35,390 bases of DNA, taken from positions 252-35,641 of the forward strand of contig MHYA01000212.1 of NCBI GenBank assembly GCA_001825675.1. Direction: 5' to 3'. This DNA comes from Planctomycetes bacterium GWF2_42_9. Lineage in GTDB: Bacteria > Planctomycetota > Phycisphaerae > Sedimentisphaerales > UBA12454. Positions 1,008-14,531 of this stretch are shown piece by piece (position 1 is the stretch's first letter; every line of letters begins with the position of its first letter). The notes beneath the pieces were generated by a model. It was not told the origin of the DNA, ran no database searches, and saw nothing but the letters and a program-made list of their open reading frames with translations. The position numbers were made by a program, and so were the translations under genes.

Positions 1008-1054
1008 ATTGCCTTACAAGCAGGATGTCACAGGTTCAAGTCCTGTACTGCCCA
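1008..1054 (+). pseudogene. 3' half of tRNA-Val(TAC), probable attR site
   Basis: The bases fit a tRNA from the anticodon arm to the discriminator. The anticodon loop CTTACAA (1013-1019) carries anticodon TAC. The 3' anticodon strand GCAGG is followed by a 5-nt variable loop, a perfect 5-bp T stem ACAGG/CCTGT around TTCAAGT, the acceptor strand ACTGCCC and A1054. CCA is not encoded. Upstream there is no GGGCAGT acceptor partner and no D arm, so the gene is only a fragment. Tyrosine recombinases often target tRNA genes at the anticodon loop and leave exactly such a 3' duplicate at the far end of the island. The element would lie to the left and the chromosome to the right. Confidence 0.8.
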
Positions 1055-1098
1055 TTGTTCCCGGAATTTTGCACTTCAAGAAGCCCACAGATTTCGCA

Positions 1099-1578
1099 TT
1101 ACCCAATTATTTTAGTAAAAATTAACTTTGGGTCGTTTGGTGCATAAAAATCAGCTACGTAGGCTGCCTGAATATATCCATTTTTGATGTAAAATTGCTG
1201 CGTGGACACGTATTTTTGCGAGCCCGAAGTCTCGATTACCGATAATCGGCCATTTTGGGTTTTGATCTGTTTTTCCGCAAATGCCAATAATTGGCTGCCG
1301 ATATGCTGTTTTTGCAAGTCTGGGTCTACCGCAATCCAATAAATATCGAATGTGCCTAGCGTGCAGGGCGTTGCGCCGAAACATATCCACCCGACGGCCT
1401 TGCCGTTAATATCCGCTACGTAAGATTGGTATGTGCAGCCGGGCTTTTGCAGGACAGCGTCTTCAAAAACTTCTTTGGCGATGTCGATTTCCACCGGCCG
1501 GAAGAAATCCGTCCGCACGATAACATCCATTATGGTTTGCTGATCGCGGGCGACTGCTTTACGTATATTTACGTTCAT
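1099..1578 (-). CDS. GNAT-family N-acetyltransferase of the KamA operon
   Basis: A 159-residue single-domain GNAT fold, expected to use acetyl-CoA to acylate an amine. The motif A region reads WIAVDPDLQKQHIGSQLL (about residues 81-98). It keeps the V-x-P strand and the Gln, but has His where the Q/R-x-x-G-x-G/A signature usually has its first Gly. The C-terminal FYIKNGY segment matches the usual GNAT end. Its ATG overlaps the TGA of the upstream ATP-grasp gene by ATGA, so translation is coupled. Beside a lysine 2,3-aminomutase, an amine of beta-lysine is a plausible substrate, as with AblB in N-epsilon-acetyl-beta-lysine synthesis. AblB is longer, and I see no specific AblB signature. Confidence 0.8.
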   Translation of the reverse strand: MNVNIRKAVARDQQTIMDVIVRTDFFRPVEIDIAKEVFEDAVLQKPGCTYQSYVADINGKAVGWICFGATPCTLGTFDIYWIAVDPDLQKQHIGSQLLAFAEKQIKTQNGRLSVIETSGSQKYVSTQQFYIKNGYIQAAYVADFYAPNDPKLIFTKIIG

Positions 1579-2594
1579 TTTGAATATCCTTTTAGTCGAA
1601 TCTCGGCGTTTTCGATTACCGCGAACACAAAAAGTTCATACGGGATACCCGCCGCCTCAAGAGCCGCTGCAAAACCTGCGTCCGCGGAAATATCCGGATT
1701 TGGATTAACTTCGATAACGTAAGGTTTATCTTTTTCATCGAGCCGAAAATCGACACGGATATAATCCTGACAACCTAAAGTCTGCCAGGCGGAAATCGCA
1801 AATTTTTCAATTTCGCCGCTCAATTTTATATTCAGATCTGCCGGAATTTTCCGAGGCGTATTATTGTATGCGAAAGAATCCTTTTGCCATTTTGCGTTGT
1901 AATCAACAATTCTCGGCAAATCTTTTGGAAACGCGGAAAAATCAATTTCAGCAATCGGCAGGACATCAACTTTTCCATTTCTTTCGAGTATGGATACATT
2001 CAATTCCCTTGTAGCGATAAACTGTTCGACGATCACCGGCTGCTCAAATCTTTTTTGTAATTGCTGCACGATTGCTCTTGCTTTTTCTCTTTCAGCCGGC
2101 ATTTCGACAACACAATCACACGTTATGCCTTCGCTCGCGTCCGAAAGTGCGGGCTTGATAATGTATTTTCCTTTTTTAAGCATATTCGGATTGAATCTTT
2201 CGTTTGCCTGGAAAACCGCACCAGTAGGGCAGGGAATATTGTTTGCGGCAAAAATCGCTTTAGCTTGTGATTTATTTTGAGCGGTTATAAGAGCACCTGT
2301 TTTGCTTCCGGTAGCACTTTTGCCGAATGCCTGGCAAATAATGGGTACAAAACAAGCATGCTGAATATCGCCTAAAAACTCCTCGACAAGATTAAAGATG
2401 ATTTTTTCTTTTCTATCACCAAGAATATTCATCAGATGTGCTAAATTTTCAATCGCCAGAACAGAAGATTTAATGCCCAGCTTTTTGCACGATTGTTCTA
2501 CAATTTCGACCTGCTCCATCACGCCCGCTCTGCTTTGGTACAGAGGATCATTGACATCGCCGAAAGTATTGTGCAGAATTAAAACATTATCCAT
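1575..2594 (-). CDS. ATP-grasp ligase B of the KamA operon (Ddl-like)
   Basis: A 339-residue ATP-grasp protein related to D-alanine-D-alanine ligase; such enzymes join a carboxylate to an amine through an acyl phosphate. The N-terminal part (MDNVLILHNTFGD) is a Rossmann-like lobe. KYIIKPALSDASEGI near residues 144-158 is the ATP-binding lysine and loop, and RVDFRLDEKDKPYVIEVNPNPD holds the Mg ligands (Asp, Glu, Asn). I chose ATG 2594 because it begins inside the upstream stop (8-nt overlap ATGGATAA); an upstream start at 2621 is possible. It differs clearly from its neighbour at 2587-3585, so the two probably act on different substrates or in sequence. Confidence 0.85.
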   Translation of the reverse strand: MDNVLILHNTFGDVNDPLYQSRAGVMEQVEIVEQSCKKLGIKSSVLAIENLAHLMNILGDRKEKIIFNLVEEFLGDIQHACFVPIICQAFGKSATGSKTGALITAQNKSQAKAIFAANNIPCPTGAVFQANERFNPNMLKKGKYIIKPALSDASEGITCDCVVEMPAEREKARAIVQQLQKRFEQPVIVEQFIATRELNVSILERNGKVDVLPIAEIDFSAFPKDLPRIVDYNAKWQKDSFAYNNTPRKIPADLNIKLSGEIEKFAISAWQTLGCQDYIRVDFRLDEKDKPYVIEVNPNPDISADAGFAAALEAAGIPYELFVFAVIENAEIRLKGYSK

Positions 2595-3585
2595 TCTTTG
2601 CTCTTTTAAAAGCGTTATCAAGAATCGTGCCGATCAATTTTTCGTAGCTCATACCTTCCTGCGTTGCAATCATCGGCAAATCAGAATGAGTTGGATGCAG
2701 ACCCGGTAGGGGATTGACCTCTATAAAGCAGGCCTTACCCTGTTTGTCGCATCGAATGTCGACCCTGGCGGTATCTCGGCACTGCAAAATCTTATAACAT
2801 TCAAGAGCCAAAGTTTCAACTTCCTTCTTCAAAGCTGGCGAATCCTTCACAGGATGATAAATAATCCGCGATTCGCATTCTTCCTTGTTCAGATACGAAT
2901 AGATAGCAGGCTCATCTTTGCTTGCCATTTCGATTTCCATCGTTCCCAGGACATACGCGTCCGCGCCGTTACCCAGAATAGCTGTGGTAAATTCCCGACC
3001 CGGAAGATATTCCTCAATCAACACCGGTTGGCGATATTCTTTGAGCAACTGCATACAAATTTTCTTCAACTGCTTTAAATCGTTAATATGCGAATTGCCG
3101 TCTATTCCTTTTCCTGTTCCTTCCGCAAGCGGCTTGGCGAATAACGGGTAATTCAGTTTAATATTCTTTAAATCTTTTTCGTTCTCAATCACGGCAAATG
3201 CCGCCGTCGCAAGGCCTGCCTGTGCCACTAGCTGTTTTGCGATACCCTTATCGAGTGTTGTCGCGCAAACAAGGGGATCAGAAAAAGTATATGGTATCTG
3301 ATACAATTCAAGCATAGCGGGAACATAAGATTCTCTGCATCTGCCGCCGATACTTTCAGCGATATTGAAAACCATATCCCACCTTTTGCCCGCAGCGAGC
3401 ATTTGGCAAAGCGCTTTGCCGTTACCTATTCGTTCGACATTATAACCAAGCGATTCGATCGTTTTAGCGATAGCGTCAATCGTGCCTTCAGAATCGAACT
3501 CGGCGACATCCTGTTCGGAGTATCCCTCGGCAAGATAATCTTTGCGTAAATCATAAACGAAACCTATCTGCTTTTTGTGCCCCAT
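2587..3585 (-). CDS. ATP-grasp ligase A of the KamA operon (Ddl-like)
   Basis: A 332-residue ATP-grasp enzyme of the D-Ala-D-Ala ligase superfamily. The segment FNIAESIGGRCRESYVPAML (about residues 93-112) matches the FNIAEG-GR-RE-VPA variant common in Ddl-like proteins outside peptidoglycan clusters. YPLFAKPLAEGTGKGI carries the ATP lysine and Gly loop. ARVDIRCDKQGKACFIEVNP holds the metal-binding Asp/Glu/Asn, and NPLPGLHP closes the site. It starts 3 nt after the kamA stop and overlaps the next gene. No mur or ftsZ genes are nearby, so a role in cell-wall D-Ala-D-Ala synthesis is unlikely; amino-acid ligation in a small-molecule pathway fits better (inference). Confidence 0.87.
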   Translation of the reverse strand: MGHKKQIGFVYDLRKDYLAEGYSEQDVAEFDSEGTIDAIAKTIESLGYNVERIGNGKALCQMLAAGKRWDMVFNIAESIGGRCRESYVPAMLELYQIPYTFSDPLVCATTLDKGIAKQLVAQAGLATAAFAVIENEKDLKNIKLNYPLFAKPLAEGTGKGIDGNSHINDLKQLKKICMQLLKEYRQPVLIEEYLPGREFTTAILGNGADAYVLGTMEIEMASKDEPAIYSYLNKEECESRIIYHPVKDSPALKKEVETLALECYKILQCRDTARVDIRCDKQGKACFIEVNPLPGLHPTHSDLPMIATQEGMSYEKLIGTILDNAFKRAKNG

Positions 3586-3588
3586 ATA

Positions 3589-4926
3589 TTATGGCTCGAA
3601 CAGATAAGCTGTTTTGCTCACGACAGCTCTTTGATGATTCTTCAATTTATGATTCTTTGCGTGCGAAACAGGTCTGCTGCCGCTTGCCAGTTCCCAAACG
3701 CCGGTATTTTCAGCAGGCTGTGAATTTACAGGCATCTGCTGGATGCAAGGTTCAGGATAATTCACAAGCAGCCCCTGATAATTCCGCAAAACGGTATGCG
3801 AAGGACTCATTGATACGATGTAATTTGGAAGTATCGGGATTTTGCCGCCGCCATAAGGTGCATCGACGACAAATGACGGTATCGCGATGCCGCTTACTCT
3901 GCCGCGGAGATATTCCATAATTTCAACGCCTTTTCGGATCGATGTGCGGAAATGCTCAACGCCCCGTACAAGGTCGCACTGGTAAAGATAATAAGGCCGA
4001 ACGCGCATCTGAATCAGACCTTTGCAAAGCTGCTCGATTATTCTGGCGTCATCATTAACGCCCGCCAGCAGCACTGTCTGATTGCCAAGCGGAATACCAG
4101 CATCGGCAAGTTTTGCGCAAGCCTGCTTTGCCTGCGGTGTTATTTCGTTTGGATGGTTAAAATGCGTATTTATCCACAACGGATGATACTTTTTCAGCAT
4201 ATTAACCAGATTGTCCGTAACTCTCATCGGCATAACCACCGGCACGCGTGTCCCGATTCGGATTACCTGAACCGTTGGAACGCTCCGAAGTGCTGAAAGT
4301 ACCATTTCGATGGATTCATCGCTCATCGTTAGCGGATCGCCGCCAGATACGATTACATCGCTTACTTCAGGGTGAGCGTTAAGATATTCGGTTACCTGTC
4401 TTAGTCTCGGCTGTGTTATGCAGCTTTCGCGAGAGCCTGCAATTCTTTTACGCGTACAATGCCTGCAATACATCGAGCACATTGTTGTTGCGATAAGCAA
4501 AACCCTGTCGCGGTAGCGGTGCACCATACCCGGCACAGGCATATCCTCATCTTCCGATAGCGGATCATCGCAAAGGAACAGCGGATCAACAAGTTCACGA
4601 GGCTGAGGAACTGCCATCGCAAAGATCGGGTCTGAAATATCAGCCTTGCGGATCAGCGAAGCGTAATAGGGCGTAATCGCCATTGGGAATTTTTGAATAA
4701 CACCGTCAATGTGCGGAAATTTCAAACCAGGCAAATATTCCGCCAGTTGCTGCGCAGACTTCAACCTGTTTCTTATCTGCCATTTCCAATCGTTAAAATT
4801 GGGAGTCCCAGCAGCGTTATTCAAAGCGTTAAAATTAGGTGTGTCAGAGGCAGGCAAGTGCCTACCCGGAGGTTCATCTTCCTGATTATCCGCCGAATCC
4901 ATCGGCGAATCTGCATCATTAAGCAT
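3589..4926 (-). CDS. kamA: KamA-family lysine 2,3-aminomutase (radical SAM, PLP)
   Basis: Lysine 2,3-aminomutase converts L-lysine to L-beta-lysine with SAM, a [4Fe-4S] cluster and PLP. From ATG 4926 (AGAAAGAAG upstream; a GTG at 4974 is the alternative) the protein has 445 residues. The cluster motif C-SMY-C-RH-C is at 150/154/157, SGGDPL at 194-199, and the PLP lysine in GGGKIP at 362. Asp318 (CDLVRGVEHF) and Asp355 (VVDAP) match the two Asp that hold the substrate amine in clostridial LAM; glutamate mutases replace these, so lysine is the likely substrate. The first ~45 residues are an acidic, low-complexity extension with TPNFN twice. First gene of a four-gene operon. Confidence 0.9.
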   Translation of the reverse strand: MLNDADSPMDSADNQEDEPPGRHLPASDTPNFNALNNAAGTPNFNDWKWQIRNRLKSAQQLAEYLPGLKFPHIDGVIQKFPMAITPYYASLIRKADISDPIFAMAVPQPRELVDPLFLCDDPLSEDEDMPVPGMVHRYRDRVLLIATTMCSMYCRHCTRKRIAGSRESCITQPRLRQVTEYLNAHPEVSDVIVSGGDPLTMSDESIEMVLSALRSVPTVQVIRIGTRVPVVMPMRVTDNLVNMLKKYHPLWINTHFNHPNEITPQAKQACAKLADAGIPLGNQTVLLAGVNDDARIIEQLCKGLIQMRVRPYYLYQCDLVRGVEHFRTSIRKGVEIMEYLRGRVSGIAIPSFVVDAPYGGGKIPILPNYIVSMSPSHTVLRNYQGLLVNYPEPCIQQMPVNSQPAENTGVWELASGSRPVSHAKNHKLKNHQRAVVSKTAYLFEP

Positions 4927-5202
4927 ATCTTCTTTCTGTAAAACCCGTTGTATAGAAAAGGACGACTTAAACACTAAGCCGTCCCTAAAAGTTTTATGAT
5001 GCTATTTCAATACCCTGATTATCGGCGTTGTCAATAGTTTTTTGCATTTTTTTTGATAAATCCCCACTTTTTTTGTTTTTCACGGCACATCGATACTTAA
5101 AAGTACAGTCTTTATTCTTATAAGAGAACTAGCTTTTTAACTGATTTTAAATTTTTGCATAAAGTTGTCTAATTCATAAAATTTTTTTAGAAAGGAAAAA
5201 TC

Positions 5203-6429
5203 ATGGGATTCAATCCATTAAAAGAAAAGGGGATTCCGCTGGAAAATCAGGTTCAAAGCTGGCAGCAGATCAATCCGCAACCGTACGATAAAAATGAAAT
5301 ACATCCTTATACCAGAACTCGTATAATCCTTATGAATGGTATCGAAGTGGAAGGTGCGATTTTCAAACATCAATTCGCCAGGCACTGCAGCGATCCCGAA
5401 ATTAACAGGCAGATCGCGATTACACGTGCCTTGGAACAGCAGCAGCAGAAAGTAATTAATTGGCTTTCACCCGCCGATGAATCAGCTATCGAGATTACAA
5501 TCGGCTATGAACAGGTCGCGGTCGATCTTACCGCATGGCTTGCCCGTACTGAAAAAGACAAAACCGTCAAAGATGCCCTCGACTTTGCCTTGTTGGAAGA
5601 TTTCGACCATCTTTACAGGTTTGCAAATCTTTTGGAATTAGAGGAAAACAAACAGGCAGAAAAAAGTGTTCGTGATTTAACGGAAATTATGCCCGGCAGA
5701 CCTACCATCAGCGAACATCGCCATCCGTATGATAACATAAGAAAGCCGGTAGATTTTCAAACCGCCGACATTTTAACCAAGCTGCATATCCTAACTATTG
5801 TATCAGGCGAACAGCAAACAATGAATTTCTATATGAATGTCGGCAACCGGGCAAAAACTATGATTGGCAGAGGTCTTTATCAGGAAATAGCTCAAGTTGA
5901 GGAAGAGCACGTTTCGCACTACGAATCTCTCGCCGACCCGACTTCGACGTGGTTCGAAATGCTTGTGCTGCACGAATATAACGAATGCTATATGTATTAT
6001 TCCTGCCTTGAATCAGAAGTTGATGAAAGGATGAAAAAGATTTGGCAGCATCACCTCGAAGAAGAAATAGGCCATCTGCACGCAGCTTTGGATTTAGCGA
6101 AGAAATTTGAAGGTATGGATGCTTCGGATATGATGCTTCCCGACCAGTTTCCTGAATTGACGGTATTCAAGTCGAATATCGATTATGTTCGTGATATTTT
6201 GAAAAACCAGATCGATCTAAATTGCGATGGATTCGATTATGTCGAAACCGACAGGTTGAGCAGGGATCACAGATTCCATCAGCATCAGGAAATCGTCAAC
6301 GCAGGCATTGTTCCCAGCCAGGAAGTTGTTCAGGAACATATTGAGAGCAAAGGTATGGATTATCGGCTCGAGATGGAAGGCGAACATCCAGTTGAAAGAT
6401 TACGAGAAAGACAGGTGGTTTTAGTTTAA
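5203..6429 (+). CDS. Two-domain ferritin-like protein, function unknown
   Basis: The 408-residue soluble protein has two helical segments rich in metal-ligand patterns. The first lies around residues 100-150 (Glu103, LLEDFDHLYRF with Glu132/His136). The second lies around 200-300 (Glu203, EEEHVSHYE at 233-241, LHEYNECY with Glu258, EEEIGHLH with Glu287/His291). Repeated E-x-x-H helices are the di-iron signature of ferritin-like proteins, so I infer an iron or diiron-oxygen role; the substrate is unknown. The start is secure, with AGAAAGGAAA 7-16 nt upstream. It is transcribed away from the kamA operon and ends in a strong terminator. Confidence 0.75.
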   Translation: MGFNPLKEKGIPLENQVQSWQQINPQPYDKNEIHPYTRTRIILMNGIEVEGAIFKHQFARHCSDPEINRQIAITRALEQQQQKVINWLSPADESAIEITIGYEQVAVDLTAWLARTEKDKTVKDALDFALLEDFDHLYRFANLLELEENKQAEKSVRDLTEIMPGRPTISEHRHPYDNIRKPVDFQTADILTKLHILTIVSGEQQTMNFYMNVGNRAKTMIGRGLYQEIAQVEEEHVSHYESLADPTSTWFEMLVLHEYNECYMYYSCLESEVDERMKKIWQHHLEEEIGHLHAALDLAKKFEGMDASDMMLPDQFPELTVFKSNIDYVRDILKNQIDLNCDGFDYVETDRLSRDHRFHQHQEIVNAGIVPSQEVVQEHIESKGMDYRLEMEGEHPVERLRERQVVLV

Positions 6430-9604: not shown

Positions 9605-11305
9605 ATGGCAGCGAAAAATTTAGCGTTTAACGCTGAAGCACGAGCAGCTTTACTCACAGGCGTAGAAAAACTGGCACGTGCTGTACGTTCCACACTTGGC
9701 CCACGCGGCAGGAACGCGATCATCGACAAAGGCTGGGGCGCACCGACCGTTACAAAAGACGGCGTAACCGTGGCTGAAGAAGTGGATTTAGTCGATAAAA
9801 CCGAAAATATGGGCGCTAAACTCGTTAAAGAGGCGGCGAGCAAAACAAGTAAGATTGCCGGCGATGGTACGACGACCGCGACAGTGCTTACAGAAGCGAT
9901 CTTCAAAGAAGCATATCGCAACATAGCGGCAGGCGCAGACCCAATGGCTCTTAACAGAGGTATTGGTCAGGCTGTTGATGCTGTTATGAAAGCATTGGTA
10001 AAACTTTCAAAGGCAGTTGATATTACCAAACGCGATGATATTGAAAACGTAGCATCAATCTCCGCGAATAACGATCGTGAAATCGGCAAGATTATGGCTG
10101 AAGCATTTATGAAACTCGGCAAAGACGGCGTTATCACAGTCGAGGAAGGCAAGAGTCTTGATACTACGCTGGATTATGTCGAAGGTATGCAGTTCGATCG
10201 CGGTTATCTTTCGCCGAACTTTGTAACAGACCCAGACAATATGAAATGCGAATTAGACAAGCCTTACATTCTTGTTTATGAAGATAAGATCAGCAGCGTT
10301 CAGAAACTGGTTCCAATTCTTGAAGCAGTTGCGAAAGCGAAAAAGCCTTTGCTTATCATTGCTGAAGATATTGAAGGCGAAGCACTGGCGACACTGGTTG
10401 TTAATAAACTTCGCGGCGTATTGAATATCGCTGCGGTTAAAGCACCGGGTTATGGCGACAGACGCAAAGCGATGCTGCAGGACCTTGCGGTTCTCACAGG
10501 CGCAGAGCCAATCTTCAAGGATTTGGGCGTTGAGCTTGATAAAGTAACATTGAAGCAGCTTGGTCGCGCAAAGAAAGTTACGATCGATAATGATAATACC
10601 GTGATCGTTGAAGGTGCAGGTTCACAGGATGCGATCAATGGTAGAATTAAAGAGATCAGAGCGGAAATTGACGCAACAACAAGCGATTATGACCGTGAGA
10701 AACTTCAGGAAAGATTAGCGAAACTGACAGGCGGCGTTGCACAGGTTAATGTTGGCGCGGCAACAGAATCTGAAATGAAGGAAAAGAAAGCACGTATCGA
10801 AGACGCATTACACGCGACACGCGCTGCGATCGAAGAAGGTATTGTGCCGGGCGGCGGAGTTGCATTGGTTAGATGCATTGAAGCTGTAAAGAAACTCAAA
10901 CTCAATGGCGATGAAAAGACGGGTGCGGAAATTATCGCAAACGCTTTGAAAATGCCATGCTATTATATCGCTGAAAACGCTGGCGCGGTCGGCAATATCG
11001 TTATCAATAAAGTATCTGAAGGCCAGGGCGGTTTCGGATACAATGCTGACAGCGATACCTACGAAGACCTTATCGCGGCAGGCGTTATTGACCCTGTTAA
11101 AGTTACAAGAATCGCATTGCAGAACGCTGCTTCAGTTGCGGGCTTACTGCTGACTTGCGATTGTGTTGTAACCGAAAAACCAGATGCCAAGAAAGCCGGT
11201 GCCGGTATGCCTGGAGGAATGGGCGGCGGTATGGGTGGCATGGGCGGAATGGGTGGTATGGGCGGTATGCCTGGCATGGGCGGAATGGGCGGAATGGATA
11301 TGTAA
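9605..11305 (+). CDS. groEL: Chaperonin GroEL, paralogue 1 (Gly-Met tail)
   Basis: A 566-residue 60-kDa chaperonin that folds proteins in an ATP-driven double ring with GroES. The ATP site GDGTTTAT and the catalytic Asp of [11 protein letters not shown] are intact, as is GGG in IVPGGGVAL. The apical segment reads GYLSPNF where E. coli has GYLSPYF, so a substrate-contact Tyr is Asn here. The C-terminus is a long Gly-Met tail of about 30 residues, longer than the usual GGM repeat of about 13. It is 71 bp upstream of groES, with repeat DNA between. Start ATG 9605, with AGGAG upstream. Confidence 0.97.
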
Positions 11306-11310
11306 TCCAG

Positions 11311-11345
11311 CCGCTAGTCGTTAGTTGATAGTCGATAGTTATTCG
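11311..11345 (+). repeat. TAGTCGTTAGTTGATAG word repeat between groEL1 and groES
   Basis: Degenerate units CTAGTCG, TTAGTTG, ATAGTCG and ATAGTTA lie in a 71-bp gap within an otherwise tight chaperone cluster. Related to the array at 7883-7911. Confidence 0.5.
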
Positions 11346-11376
11346 AATTTAATAAAAAAATTATGGAGATATAAAA

Positions 11377-11667
11377 ATGAAACTTAAACCTTTAGATGAC
11401 AGGATTGTTGTACAGCCGCAAGAGGCTGAAGAGAAAACAGCGGGCGGTATCGTTCTTCCAGATACTGCAAAAGAAAAACCACTTATGGGCAAAGTAATTT
11501 CAGTCGGCCCGGGCAAATTGCTGGATAGCGGCAAACGCAGTGAAGTTGCTGTGAAGAAAGGCGATGTTGTGCTGTTTGGTAAGTACGGCGGAAACGATAT
11601 TAAAATTGACGGCGTTGAATATAAAATCCTGCATGAGAGCGATATTCTCGGCATAGTTGAGAAATGA
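11377..11667 (+). CDS. groES: Co-chaperonin GroES
   Basis: A 96-residue 10-kDa chaperonin lid that caps GroEL rings. It starts [30 protein letters not shown], which includes the mobile loop (GGIVLPD) that binds Gro[13 protein letters not shown] and VLFGKYGG are typical, and the length is normal. GGAGAT lies 7 nt before the ATG. It ends 7 nt before groEL2, the canonical groES-groEL arrangement, and must serve both paralogues unless another groES exists elsewhere. Confidence 0.97.
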
Positions 11668-11674
11668 GGTTGAT

Positions 11675-13294
11675 ATGGCTAAACAAATGATGTTTGATGA
11701 TGCGGCAAGAGCACACCTGAAACAGGGACTTGCCAGTCTGGCGGCAGCGGTGAAAGTTACACTTGGACCGACAGGCAAAAACGTTCTTCTGCATAAAAGT
11801 TATGGTTCGCCGAAGATAACAAAAGACGGCGTTTCGGTAAGTAAGGAAATCGAACTGCCGGAACCATTCAAGAATATGGGCGCCAAAATGGTGAACCAAG
11901 CGGCGAGCAAGACAAGCGATGTTGTCGGCGATGGTACGACTACAGCGACTGTTCTGGCAGAAGCGATCTATAACGAAGGTTTGAAAAACGTAACAGCGGG
12001 CGCAAATCCAATGGCAATCAAACGCGGCATCGATAAGGCTGTGCAGGTTGTTGTTGATTTTATCGCATCGCAGAGCAAAAAAGTAAAAGGGCACGATGAT
12101 ATCGCGAAGGTTGCGGCTATCAGCGCGAATAATAATAAAGAGATCGGCGAGATACTTGCCAACGCAATGGATAAGGTCGGCAAAGAAGGCGTTATCGAAG
12201 TTGAAGAAGGCAAGGGTTTGCAGACAGAGCTGGAAGTTGTCGAAGGTATGCAGTTTGACCGCGGATATATTTCGCCATACTTCATCACCAACACAACCAG
12301 TATGGAAGCAGTTCTTGAAGACGCTTATGTTCTGCTTTATGAGAAAAAACTTTCGAGTATCGGCGAGATCGTTCCTCTGCTTGAGAAAATCGCACGAGTC
12401 GGCGCACAACTGCTGATCGTTGCTGAAGAAGTTGAAGGCGAAGCACTGGCAGCGCTTGTTATTAACAGGCTGCAGGGCGTTTTGAAGGTTTGTGCTGTAA
12501 AGGCTCCGGGATTCGGCGACAGACGCAAAGCTATGCTCGGTGATATTGCTGCTCTTACGGGCGGTGAAATGATCACTGAAGACCTTGGCATTAAACTTGA
12601 GAAAGTTGAATTGTCGCAGCTGGGCAGAGCGAAAAAGATTGTTGTTGCGAAAGAAAACACAACGATAATCGAAGGCGCGGGCACGAAGAAAGCCATTACC
12701 GCACGCTGTGAACAAATCCGCAAACAAGCCGAAGCGACAACAAGCGATTATGATCGTGAGAAATTGCAGGAAAGACTTGCGAAACTGACGGGCGGTGTTG
12801 CGGTTATTAAAGCCGGCGCTGCAACTGAAACAGAAATGAAAGAACGCAAAGATCTGCTTGACGACGCACTTCACGCAACGAAAGCTGCGGCTGAAGAAGG
12901 CGTGGTAGCAGGCGGCGGAGTTATTTATTTACGTGCAATCGAAAAAGTTAAAGCTGCGAAAAAACAGGCCAGCGGCGATGAGCAAATCGGTTTCGATATT
13001 ATCGCGGCTGCTTTGAAAGCACCGACAAAACAGATTGCTGATAACGGCGATGAAGACGGCGATGTGATCGTTGAGAAACTGCTCGAACAATCAGGCAATA
13101 TGGGCTATGATGCCAACGCGAGCAAATTCGTTGATATGGTTGAGGCTGGAGTTATTGATCCGGCTAAAGTATCGCGAAGCGCTCTGCAGAATGCGGCGTC
13201 GGTTGCCGGTTTGATGCTTACAACTAATGTTTTGATCACTGATTTAAAAGATGATGACAAGGAAAAGCCTGTAATAGAAGGCTCTGTCAGATAA
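11675..13294 (+). CDS. groEL: Chaperonin GroEL, paralogue 2 (no Gly-Met tail)
   Basis: A 539-residue GroEL. ATG 11675, preceded by GAGG, is preferred over an in-frame codon at 11657 that overlaps gro[21 protein letters not shown] and GVVAGGG are intact, and the apical motif is the standard GYISPYF. The C-terminus ends in a charged sequence ([14 protein letters not shown]) with no Gly-Met repeat. That is unusual, because this is the copy in the canonical groES-groEL position. The two GroELs diverge throughout, which suggests an old duplication with specialised clients. Followed by a large hairpin before dnaJ. Confidence 0.96.
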
Positions 13295-13303
13295 TTGAAA
13301 GTA

Positions 13304-13368
13304 AATGAGTAGATGAGTGGAAGGGTAAAAGAGTAAAACTCATAAACCCGTAAACTCATTTACTCATT
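13304..13368 (+). promoter_or_regulatory. Long interrupted hairpin in the groEL2-dnaJ gap
   Basis: Four stem blocks are nested: AATGAGTA/TACTCATT (13304-13311/13361-13368), ATGAGT/ACTCAT (13313-13318/13354-13359), GGGT/ACCC (13323-13326/13346-13349) and GAGT/ACTC (13331-13334/13338-13341). The 3' arm ends 11 nt before the dnaJ ATG, and no Shine-Dalgarno is obvious there. There is no T-tail. A translational control element, an RNA processing site or just a word repeat are all possible. Confidence 0.6.
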
Positions 13369-13379
13369 CACAATTTGCT

Positions 13380-14531
13380 ATGGCTAAACGCGATTACTAC
13401 GAAGTCTTAGGTGTTGAGAAAACCGCCAGTGCGGATGATATAAAACGTTCATATCGTCGGCTGGCGATTAAATATCACCCTGATAAGAATCCCGGCGATA
13501 AGGAAGCGGAGGCGAAATTCAAGGAATGCGCCGAAGCGTACGAAGTTTTGAGCGATAGCGAGAAACGCTCGCGATATGACCAATATGGTCATGCGGGATT
13601 ACAGGGTTCAGGAATTCATGACTATTCGAGAATGAACGTCGATGATATCTTCGGGGCGCTGAACCTCGAAGATATTCTCGGCGATTTATTTGGCGGAGGA
13701 TTTGGCGGCGGACGCGCTAGACGCGGAGCTACCGCCAGAGGGCCGCGACGAGGTTATGATCTTGAGACGGAAGTCGAACTCACACTTGACGAAGTAGCGA
13801 AAGGCGTTGAGAAAAGCATAGAGTTTACACGGCAGGATGTTTGCGAAGAATGCGTCGGCAGCGGGGCGGCGAAAGGAAGCAGCCCATCGAAATGCCCGAC
13901 GTGCGGCGGTTCTGGGCAGGTGGTTCGCTCAGGTATGGGCGGATTTTTCCAAATGGCGTCGACTTGTCCGCAATGCAGAGGCGCTGGTAAAATTATCAGT
14001 AATCCGTGCAAAAAGTGCAGGGGCAGCGGCAGGACATCAAAGAAACGACTTGTTACTGTAAAGATTCCCGCGGGCGTGCACGAAGGGCAGAGCGTGCGAA
14101 TCAGCGGCGAAGGCGAGCCGGGGGTTGACGGCGGGCCGAGAGGCGATTTGTACTGCTATGTGCGATTGAAAGAGCATCCGTTCTTGCAAAGAGACGGGAT
14201 AGATCTTGTCGCGACTGTTCCTATTAGTTTTACACAGGCATCGCTTGGCGGAGAAATTGAAGTTCCCAGTCTTAGTGGTATGCGTGAATTAAAAATACCG
14301 CCGGGGACGCAATATGGCGATGTGTTCAGAATTAAAGGGCAAGGTTTGCCGGATATTCGCACGAAACACAATGGTGATGAACTGGTGCAGGTAATGGTAG
14401 AGATACCGAAAAAACTGAACAGCCAGCAGGAAGAACTTTTGCGGGAATTTGCAAAGACGGAAGATAAAATTGTTCTGCCAAAGACAAAAGGTTTTTTTGA
14501 CAAGCTGAAAGATTATTTTAATAACAAATAG
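13380..14531 (+). CDS. dnaJ: Chaperone DnaJ (type I Hsp40)
   Basis: A 383-residue co-chaperone that delivers clients to DnaK and stimulates its ATPase. The J domain spans residues 1-70, with HPD in [11 protein letters not shown] Gly-rich linker follows ([13 protein letters not shown]). The zinc domain has four CxxCxGxG-type repeats: [24 protein letters not shown] and CKKCRGSG. The C-terminal substrate domain starts [11 protein letters not shown]. Full length. It lies in a folding cluster with grpE next; dnaK is not in the window. No good ribosome site is seen; see the upstream hairpin. Confidence 0.97.

Follow-up and report, generated by a model that had tools for sequence, protein, structure and literature searches.

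Predicted lysine 2,3-aminomutase, two Ddl-like ATP-grasp ligases and a GNAT form a conserved gene cassette in bacteria of several phyla

Introduction

Beta-lysine metabolism is known for an osmolyte, lysine fermentation, EF-P tagging and a few antibiotics. In a 35,390-nucleotide stretch of DNA from Planctomycetes bacterium GWF2_42_9 (contig MHYA01000212.1, positions 252 to 35,641; hereafter the window), a first-pass annotation made from sequence alone described a compact operon encoding KamA, two ATP-grasp ligases and a GNAT. It proposed that beta-lysine is ligated once or twice and acetylated to give an acetylated beta-lysyl di- or tripeptide, serving as an osmolyte, signal or antimetabolite. 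We asked whether these four genes belong together, and what they might make.

Results

Four minus-strand genes with lysine 2,3-aminomutase and Ddl-like features

We first re-examined the gene calls. All four genes lie on the minus strand: kamA at 3589-4926 (445 aa; ATG at 4926, with an alternative GTG at 4974), A1 at 2587-3585 (332 aa), A2 at 1575-2594 (339 aa; ATG, with an alternative TTG at 2621) and the GNAT gene at 1099-1578 (159 aa). KamA and A1 are separated by 3 nt (3586-3588), A1 and A2 overlap by 8 nt (2587-2594), and A2 and the GNAT overlap by an ATGA (1575-1578). The arrangement reported in the first-pass annotation is thus confirmed.

To identify KamA, we compared it with solved structures and family models. 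It is close to the L-lysine 2,3-aminomutase 2a5h (E 3.8e-135), and the alignment places the three cluster cysteines, the PLP lysine and both substrate aspartates on identical residues; these positions are at least 97% conserved in 66 KamA rows. The NCBIfam AblA model TIGR03820 was the best of six families at 510.7 bits, just under its cut-off of 525.4, whereas TIGR00238 was above its cut-off. KamA is therefore a KamA-family protein, very near AblA but not called by its model. It scored 254.2 bits against the EpmB model TIGR03821 (cut-off 369.3). This score speaks against a beta-lysine tag on a protein or other macromolecule, such as EpmB and EpmA place on EF-P, with an ATP-grasp protein as the ligase. 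In favor of such a tag, ATP-grasp ligases of the RimK kind modify proteins and A2 has a weak RimK match; however, we saw no recurrent target protein next to the cassette, and we consider this reading unlikely.

A1 and A2 match the D-Ala-D-Ala ligase C-terminal domain (PF07478) but lie well under the Ddl-type cut-offs among the best 25 families listed for each (best 176.2 of 243 bits for A1 and 103.9 of 243 for A2). Their AlphaFold models have mean pLDDT values of 91.4 and 95.7, respectively, and for each the 50 fold matches listed are all D-Ala:D-Ala or D-Ala:D-Lac ligases. The GNAT has a Pfam GNAT match and no match to AblB (TIGR03827) at E 0.001. It is a full-length relative of PDB 2r7h (E 1.8e-28 alone, 2e-56 with the family profile), a structure from the sulfate reducer Oleidesulfovibrio alaskensis G20 titled putative D-alanine N-acetyltransferase, a title for which we know of no functional test.

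The cassette is conserved across phyla

Conservation of the neighborhood had been named beforehand as a point on which the proposal could fail, as had grouping of the ligases with cell-wall Ddl; neither refuted it. Using A1 alone, we collected 71 loci from eight named phyla. KamA was found in 66 of 68 loci with at least 500 bases upstream, A2 in 62 of 65 and the GNAT in 53 of 56; of 48 loci with room for all four genes, 44 show them. A Desulfacinum locus (L045) carries the set. Loci with too little room at an edge were left out of each count (3 of 71 for KamA, 6 for A2 and 15 for the GNAT). In the two loci lacking KamA (L028 and L036), a GNAT-deacetylase gene lies in its place and ends at, or within 0.5 kb of, the contig edge. 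In one listing of ORFs, overlapping ORFs were thinned, which can hide genes.

We next examined 298 genomes of the window's class. A1 was present in 45, all of which also have a KamA, adjacent in 38 (Fisher p 6e-42, relatedness ignored). For these counts we left out two weak A1 matches (genomes G106 and G256; 140-142 bits, in ORFs of 719-1029 aa). A2 rows were chosen by hand (44 genomes, down to 122 bits), leaving out genome G081 at 125 bits, which has no A1, and all lower rows. The genes are also kept when separated: in genome G264, KamA and A1 lie 1.7 Mb apart on one contig, and in four genomes of one genus (g75) they lie on different contigs, three of these genomes also having A2. The KamA of genome G253 (54% identical, not adjacent) may be of the AblB type. 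The distribution is patchy: 45 of 298 genomes in the class, and 2 of 5 listed genomes in the genus.

The loci show gene fusions: A2+GNAT in 18 loci, GNAT+deacetylase in 14 and GNAT+deacetylase+GNAT in 3. An A1+A2 fusion in locus L067 lacks the end of A1 (match 6-292), perhaps owing to a deletion or assembly fault, and was not used as evidence. The neighboring gene at 5203-6429 was rejected as part of the cassette, because it lies beside it only in loci L001 and L002 among the 71. No PADLOC match was found for the four genes, this neighbor or the GNAT-deacetylase, giving no support for a defense system. A promoter/terminator scan gave counts near the shuffled mean (11 against 9.1, 3 against 5.2) and was not used.

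A1 and A2 are distinct from cell-wall Ddl

To determine whether A1 and A2 are simply cell-wall enzymes, we built a tree of 25 A1, 24 A2 and three Ddl rows, without BacD-like or MysD-like ligases. A1, A2 and Ddl each formed one side of a branch, with support of 100/100, 100/99 and 100/99, respectively. The window's genome has another ligase, on contig C150, that falls in the Ddl clade. A1-like plasmid genes of rhizobia lie outside the A1 clade, and one from Thioflavicoccus falls as a long branch on the A2 side; none was counted as a member.

We then aligned 70 A1 and 61 A2 rows (the window's own counted twice in each) against E. coli DdlB. Among the ATP and Mg residues, K97, K144, E187, K215, R255 and N272 are kept in all rows, and E180, D257 and E270 in all A1 and all but one or two A2 rows. 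By contrast, several residues of the D-Ala pocket (E15, H63, S150, Y216, S281 and L282) are replaced in a fixed, family-specific way. H63 becomes Glu in 70/70 A1 and 60/61 A2 rows, Y216 becomes Glu in 68/70 A1 and Trp in 61/61 A2, and L282 becomes Asp in 69/70 A1 and Gly in 60/61 A2, so that A1 gains three carboxylates. S150 is Thr in 68/70 A1 and Ala or Gly in A2. Some Ddl pocket residues stay in A1, however: S281 in 70/70 rows and a Glu at E15 in 50/70 (Gln in the window). A role in cell-wall or D-alanine metabolism, with extra D-Ala-D-Ala-type ligases and a D-alanine N-acetyltransferase, finds support in the fold and family, these retained residues and the title of 2r7h. The replaced residues, the separate clades and the additional Ddl-clade ligase make it very unlikely.

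A fifth recurrent gene encodes a GNAT-deacetylase fusion

Inspection of the loci revealed a fifth recurrent gene, which the first-pass annotation had missed, encoding a GNAT fused to a deacetylase that resembles acetylpolyamine amidohydrolase. Its deacetylase domain, of the histone-deacetylase fold, scored 256 bits to 9gkz and 252 bits to PF00850, and the HH, D/H/D and Tyr motif positions, which comprise the zinc and catalytic residues, are at least 97% conserved in 17 rows. It differs from acetylpolyamine amidohydrolase in carrying an N-terminal GNAT domain and in going with beta-lysine modules. Counting the 15 full-length rows in the class (585 bits or more, leaving out an edge piece in G256 and all bare deacetylases), 14 of its 15 genomes have KamA, and four of the five without A1 are AblA/AblB genomes. 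This gene was not found in the window's own genome, which is about 92% complete. That its nearest enzymes act on acetylpolyamines, which are small molecules, is a further point against a macromolecular tag.

Relation to the AblA/AblB pathway

In the known pathway, KamA (AblA) and the acetyltransferase AblB make the osmolyte N-epsilon-acetyl-beta-lysine. Of 13 class genomes with KamA but no A1, 12 carry AblB near KamA, so the cassette stands where AblB stands in that pathway. No ORF of the 71 A1 loci was listed as an AblB match, and A1-type and AblB-type KamA fall on opposite sides of a 100/100 branch. The symporter and channel that accompany some AblA/AblB modules of the class have no homologue in the 71 A1 loci, which speaks against a salt-controlled osmolyte. 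No Na+ or other riboswitch was found at gathering threshold in the 28 sources searched (8+11+9), although riboswitch control does not define all members of the AblA/AblB pathway. Three sources are named fen_1346, fen_1349 and fen_1361, which suggests non-saline habitats.

One possibility is that the cassette is a simple variant of this pathway, in which the small GNAT replaces AblB and makes N-epsilon-acetyl-beta-lysine, and the ligases extend or store it only secondarily. KamA plus an acetyltransferase is present in both, both module types occur in one class, and the GNAT-deacetylase goes with both. However, in these loci, which were found through A1, A1 and A2 are about as constant as KamA and the GNAT, and A2 is fused to the GNAT in 18, so they are not secondary. 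With the absence of an AblB match and the different KamA clade, we regard this variant as unlikely.

Comparison with other ATP-grasp pathways

Biosynthesis of N-acetylglutaminylglutamine amide (NAGGN) combines ATP-grasp and GNAT logic in one protein, as does the A2+GNAT fusion. No match to the NAGGN synthetase model appeared among the best 25 listed, and neither an amidotransferase nor an M42 hydrolase was seen, by eye rather than by a search by name, among the recurrent neighbors. On these observations, the cassette would have KamA and a second ligase in place of an amidotransferase.

The negamycin cluster likewise contains beta-lysine-forming enzymes and an ATP-grasp protein (PMC12154649, a preprint), raising the possibility of a secondary metabolite, either an antimetabolite or a signal. 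In line with this, Ddl-like ATP-grasp genes lie near distant kamA genes on a Bradyrhizobium plasmid and, with diaminopropionate and diaminobutyrate genes, on a Thioflavicoccus plasmid, and what we read as a permease-like gene recurs about 2.5 kb upstream in four Bacteroidota loci. However, the negamycin cluster also has a hydrazine-forming enzyme, N-methylation and lysine hydroxylation, and no such gene is in the conserved set. Among the families listed in four or more loci (a partial list, read by eye), we saw no resistance or NRPS gene and no exporter shared across phyla, and the gene set is small and constant over eight phyla. These observations weaken the antimetabolite proposal, and a secondary metabolite appears unlikely.

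Our literature searches showed no paper describing KamA with Ddl-like ligases and a GNAT, although one query returned nothing at all, perhaps owing to how "2,3-aminomutase" is written. Papers on Desulfovibrio fitness, pressure, stress and sigma-54 control (PMC6052904, PMC4001038, PMC4641369, PMC10533852) gave nothing on these genes.

Discussion

The interpretation in the first-pass annotation is supported in part. A conserved cassette around lysine 2,3-aminomutase, with ligases that do not group with cell-wall Ddl, is borne out, whereas a di- or tripeptide product acting as osmolyte, signal or antimetabolite remains inference. In addition to the fifth gene, that annotation did not see the fusions, the AblB alternative in sister genomes or the solved GNAT relative.

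Our preferred explanation, which we hold with no more than even confidence, is a biosynthetic cassette for an intracellular, acetylated small peptide derived from beta-lysine. In this view, KamA would turn L-lysine into beta-lysine; we are quite confident of this step, although the activity is inferred from its residues. A1, whose pocket by alignment has gained three fixed carboxylates, would activate or accept beta-lysine or lysine and make a first amide bond, which we consider somewhat more likely than not. A2 would make a second bond on that product or on a partner amino acid, a step on which the evidence is evenly balanced. The GNAT, fused to A2 in many relatives, would acetylate a free amine, which we consider reasonably likely. 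In many relatives the GNAT-deacetylase fusion would remove or exchange acetyl groups. What the analysis shows is the gene order, its conservation, the residue patterns and the clades; the enzymatic activities, product, linkage and role are inferred, and an osmolyte role is possible but not shown.

In its broadest form, which we hold only tentatively, this reading would describe a widespread, undescribed class of beta-lysyl peptide metabolite, built without ribosome or NRPS by two dedicated ATP-grasp ligases with a cation-binding pocket, acetylated by a GNAT and recycled by a fusion of GNAT and acetylpolyamine amidohydrolase. It would be an alternative branch of beta-lysine metabolism to AblB, in at least eight phyla including sulfate reducers and Planctomycetota. 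A conserved further fate of beta-lysine with two dedicated ligases, which current models score as D-alanine-D-alanine ligase relatives, would add a metabolite class in common anaerobes, point to a recurrent mis-annotation, and give a purpose to a structure (2r7h) whose title only guesses one.

Structure of the four-gene locus

To examine the locus, we first re-derived the positions and spacings of its genes. The four genes lie on the minus strand where the first-pass annotation had placed them, with the 3-nt gap, the 8-nt overlap and the ATGA overlap that it had described, so its observation held. KamA aligns over its catalytic part with the solved lysine 2,3-aminomutase (PDB 2a5h) and retains the cysteine motif, the PLP lysine and both substrate aspartates. 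The two ligase-like proteins, A1 and A2, carry the Ddl C-terminal ATP-grasp domain, and the fourth gene encodes a GNAT.

Upstream of KamA, a divergent gene at 5203-6429 of the window encodes a 408-aa protein with no Pfam or NCBIfam match at E 0.001. A protein 79-80% identical to it lies next to the cassette only in two of the loci described below, L001 and L002, and its His/Glu-rich stretches suggest, by our reading of the sequence, a ferritin-like protein. At window 1010-1059 we found a 50-bp exact copy of the 3' end of a tRNA-Val (tac) gene. The whole tRNA is on contig C188 (stretch L155), beside a partial ORF that we read by eye as a tyrosine integrase. The copy is perhaps the far attachment site of an integrated element lying at lower coordinates, with the cassette just outside it. 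Two Cpn60-family chaperonin genes followed by a DnaJ gene lie at window 9605-14531.

Conservation of the cassette

To determine whether the gene set is conserved, we scanned 84,980 species genomes with A1 alone, using a pattern-based search. The scan gave 71 loci (L-numbers denote individual loci or fetched stretches): 38 in Planctomycetota, 15 in Bacteroidota, 6 in Pseudomonadota, 4 in Lentisphaerota, 4 in Thermodesulfobacteriota, 1 each in Acidobacteriota, Fidelibacterota and Bacillota, and 1 unassigned. KamA lies upstream in 66 of 68 loci with at least 500 bases there, A2 lies downstream in 62 of 65, and the GNAT is present in 53 of 56. All four genes were detected in 44 of the 48 loci with room for them. 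The four misses are L028 and L036, in which a deacetylase gene lies at or near the contig edge, and L008 and L060, in which no A2 or GNAT was seen. In L007, L010 and L069, the fetched stretch upstream of the cassette also holds genes that we read as murB and murC (and a Ddl-like gene in L007), probably reflecting shared local gene order. In four Bacteroidota loci (L061, L062, L063 and L071), a 300-aa ORF that we read as permease-like recurs upstream of KamA, about 2.5 kb before it in L061.

We then looked at 298 genomes of the window's class (G-numbers denote individual genomes). A1 was found in 45 genomes, a KamA in all 45 of these (adjacent in 38), and A2 in 43 (adjacent in 36). The KamA of genome G253 is only 54% identical, lies elsewhere and may be of the AblB type. 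Where the genes are apart they are still kept: in G264, KamA and A1 lie 1.7 Mb apart on one contig, and in four genomes of one genus (g75) they lie on different contigs, three of these also having A2. These tests ignore relatedness.

In the class of the L068 genome (Desulfonatronovibrio), a relative of the GNAT occurs in 59 of 247 genomes. We fetched 13 of these neighborhoods (14 stretches) and, after thinning overlapping ORFs, detected KamA in 12 of the 13, A1 in 8 and A2 in 10; the remaining genome, G362, shows none of the partners. Stretches L142 and L143 show the order KamA-A1-A2-GNAT-deacetylase. A sigma-54 activator lies directly upstream of KamA in L141, L142 and L143 and one gene away in L149. 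In the first set, a TetR gene stands directly upstream of KamA in 24 of the 66 KamA-bearing loci.

A fifth gene and gene fusions

Between KamA and A1, or after A2, 17 of the 71 loci have a gene encoding an N-terminal GNAT and a deacetylase domain. Its best solved relatives are acetylpolyamine amidohydrolases (E 5.9e-75), and the metal and catalytic motif positions are conserved in the 17 rows aligned. A2 is fused to the GNAT in 18 loci, and the GNAT-deacetylase is fused to the second GNAT in three. The GNAT-deacetylase gene was not found in the window's own genome. In the class sample it occurs full-length in 15 genomes, 14 of which have KamA. Of the five without A1, four have KamA (hypergeometric p 2e-5, relatedness ignored), although three of these four are in one family.

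The two ligases

A1, A2 and Ddl form three separate groups in a tree of 25, 24 and 3 rows, with support of 100/100, 100/99 and 100/99, respectively. Two ORFs of 631 and 677 aa (L102 2003-3898 and L104 2681-4714), which fuse a methyltransferase-like domain to an A2-like ATP-grasp domain, fall near but outside the A2 clade. More distant arrangements were also seen on plasmids: a Bradyrhizobium plasmid (L085 1937-6963) carries lysine 2,3-aminomutase, gamma-glutamyltransferase, a 7TM protein and an A1-like ATP-grasp in a row, and a Thioflavicoccus plasmid (L087 5950-11431) carries KamA beside a Ddl-like ATP-grasp and diaminopropionate/diaminobutyrate genes.

To examine the substrate pocket, we mapped 70 A1 and 61 A2 rows (the window's own counted twice in each) on E. 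coli DdlB. The ATP and Mg residues are kept, but much of the D-Ala pocket is rebuilt. H63 is replaced by Glu in 70 of 70 A1 and 60 of 61 A2 rows, Y216 by Glu in 68 of 70 A1 and by Trp in 61 of 61 A2 rows, and L282 by Asp in 69 of 70 A1 and by Gly in 60 of 61 A2 rows. Against a full rebuild, S281 is kept in 70 of 70 A1 rows, and E15 is Glu in 50 of 70 A1 rows (Gln in the window). The three extra carboxylates in the A1 pocket fit a substrate with several amino groups, such as beta-lysine, an inference from sequence and not from a ligand model. The predicted structures of A1 and A2 are confident (pLDDT 91.4 and 95.7, respectively), and the 50 solved matches listed for each are D-Ala:D-Ala or D-Ala:D-Lac ligases, so fold alone does not tell the substrate.

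The ACETYLTRANSFERASE

The GNAT family profile finds PDB 2r7h, a 'putative D-alanine N-acetyltransferase', at E 2e-56. The source of this structure is Desulfovibrio desulfuricans G20. The D-alanine in its title probably follows the name of a neighboring ligase, although this is an inference.

Putative pathway and its relation to the AblB module

No NCBIfam or PADLOC model names the set, and our literature searches listed no description of it. Its parts are known families, whereas the combination and its breadth are, to our knowledge, new. In the pathway that we propose, KamA would convert lysine to beta-lysine, A1 and A2 would form one or two amide bonds, the GNAT would acetylate the product, and, in many relatives, the GNAT-deacetylase would remove or exchange acetyl groups. 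Gene content, gene order, residues and co-occurrence are demonstrated by our analysis; every enzymatic activity in this scheme, together with the partner amino acid, the number of units and the role of the product, is inferred. The first-pass annotation's interpretation, in which beta-lysine is ligated once or twice and acetylated, is supported in part.

An intracellular solute is favored by the known fate of acetyl-beta-lysine, by the AblB alternative described below, and by the absence of an exporter shared across phyla among the subset of recurrent neighbors that we inspected by eye, although the permease-like gene recurs in the four Bacteroidota loci. Against this, no riboswitch was found in the 28 sources searched, no homologue of the symporter or channel of the AblB modules was found in the A1 loci, and some sources are named after fens. 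Na+ riboswitches are reported at ablA (PMC9337991), and an ablAB osmolyte is proposed in Pelobacter (PMC3543383). For Planctomycetota, a list of observed or predicted compatible solutes in a 2026 paper includes N-acetylglutaminylglutamine amide and ectoines, and the term beta-lysine does not occur in its text (PMC13342039).

We then focused on the 13 class genomes that have KamA but no A1. In 12 of them, AblB, the acetyltransferase of the known acetyl-beta-lysine pathway, lies in the fetched KamA neighborhood; in the exception, G272, KamA is on a 3.4-kb contig. With the second KamA of genome G214 added, 7 of 13 AblB modules hold a sodium/solute symporter and 2 hold a mechanosensitive-channel gene, neither of which was listed in any of the 71 A1 loci. 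The KamA tree separates A1-type (67 rows) from AblB-type (13 rows) with one change, although one A1-type row, L060, sits near the AblB side with weak support, and several outside rows have long branches. At least one genome (G214) has both modules, so they do not exclude each other. Taken together, these findings indicate that the cassette stands where AblB stands elsewhere.
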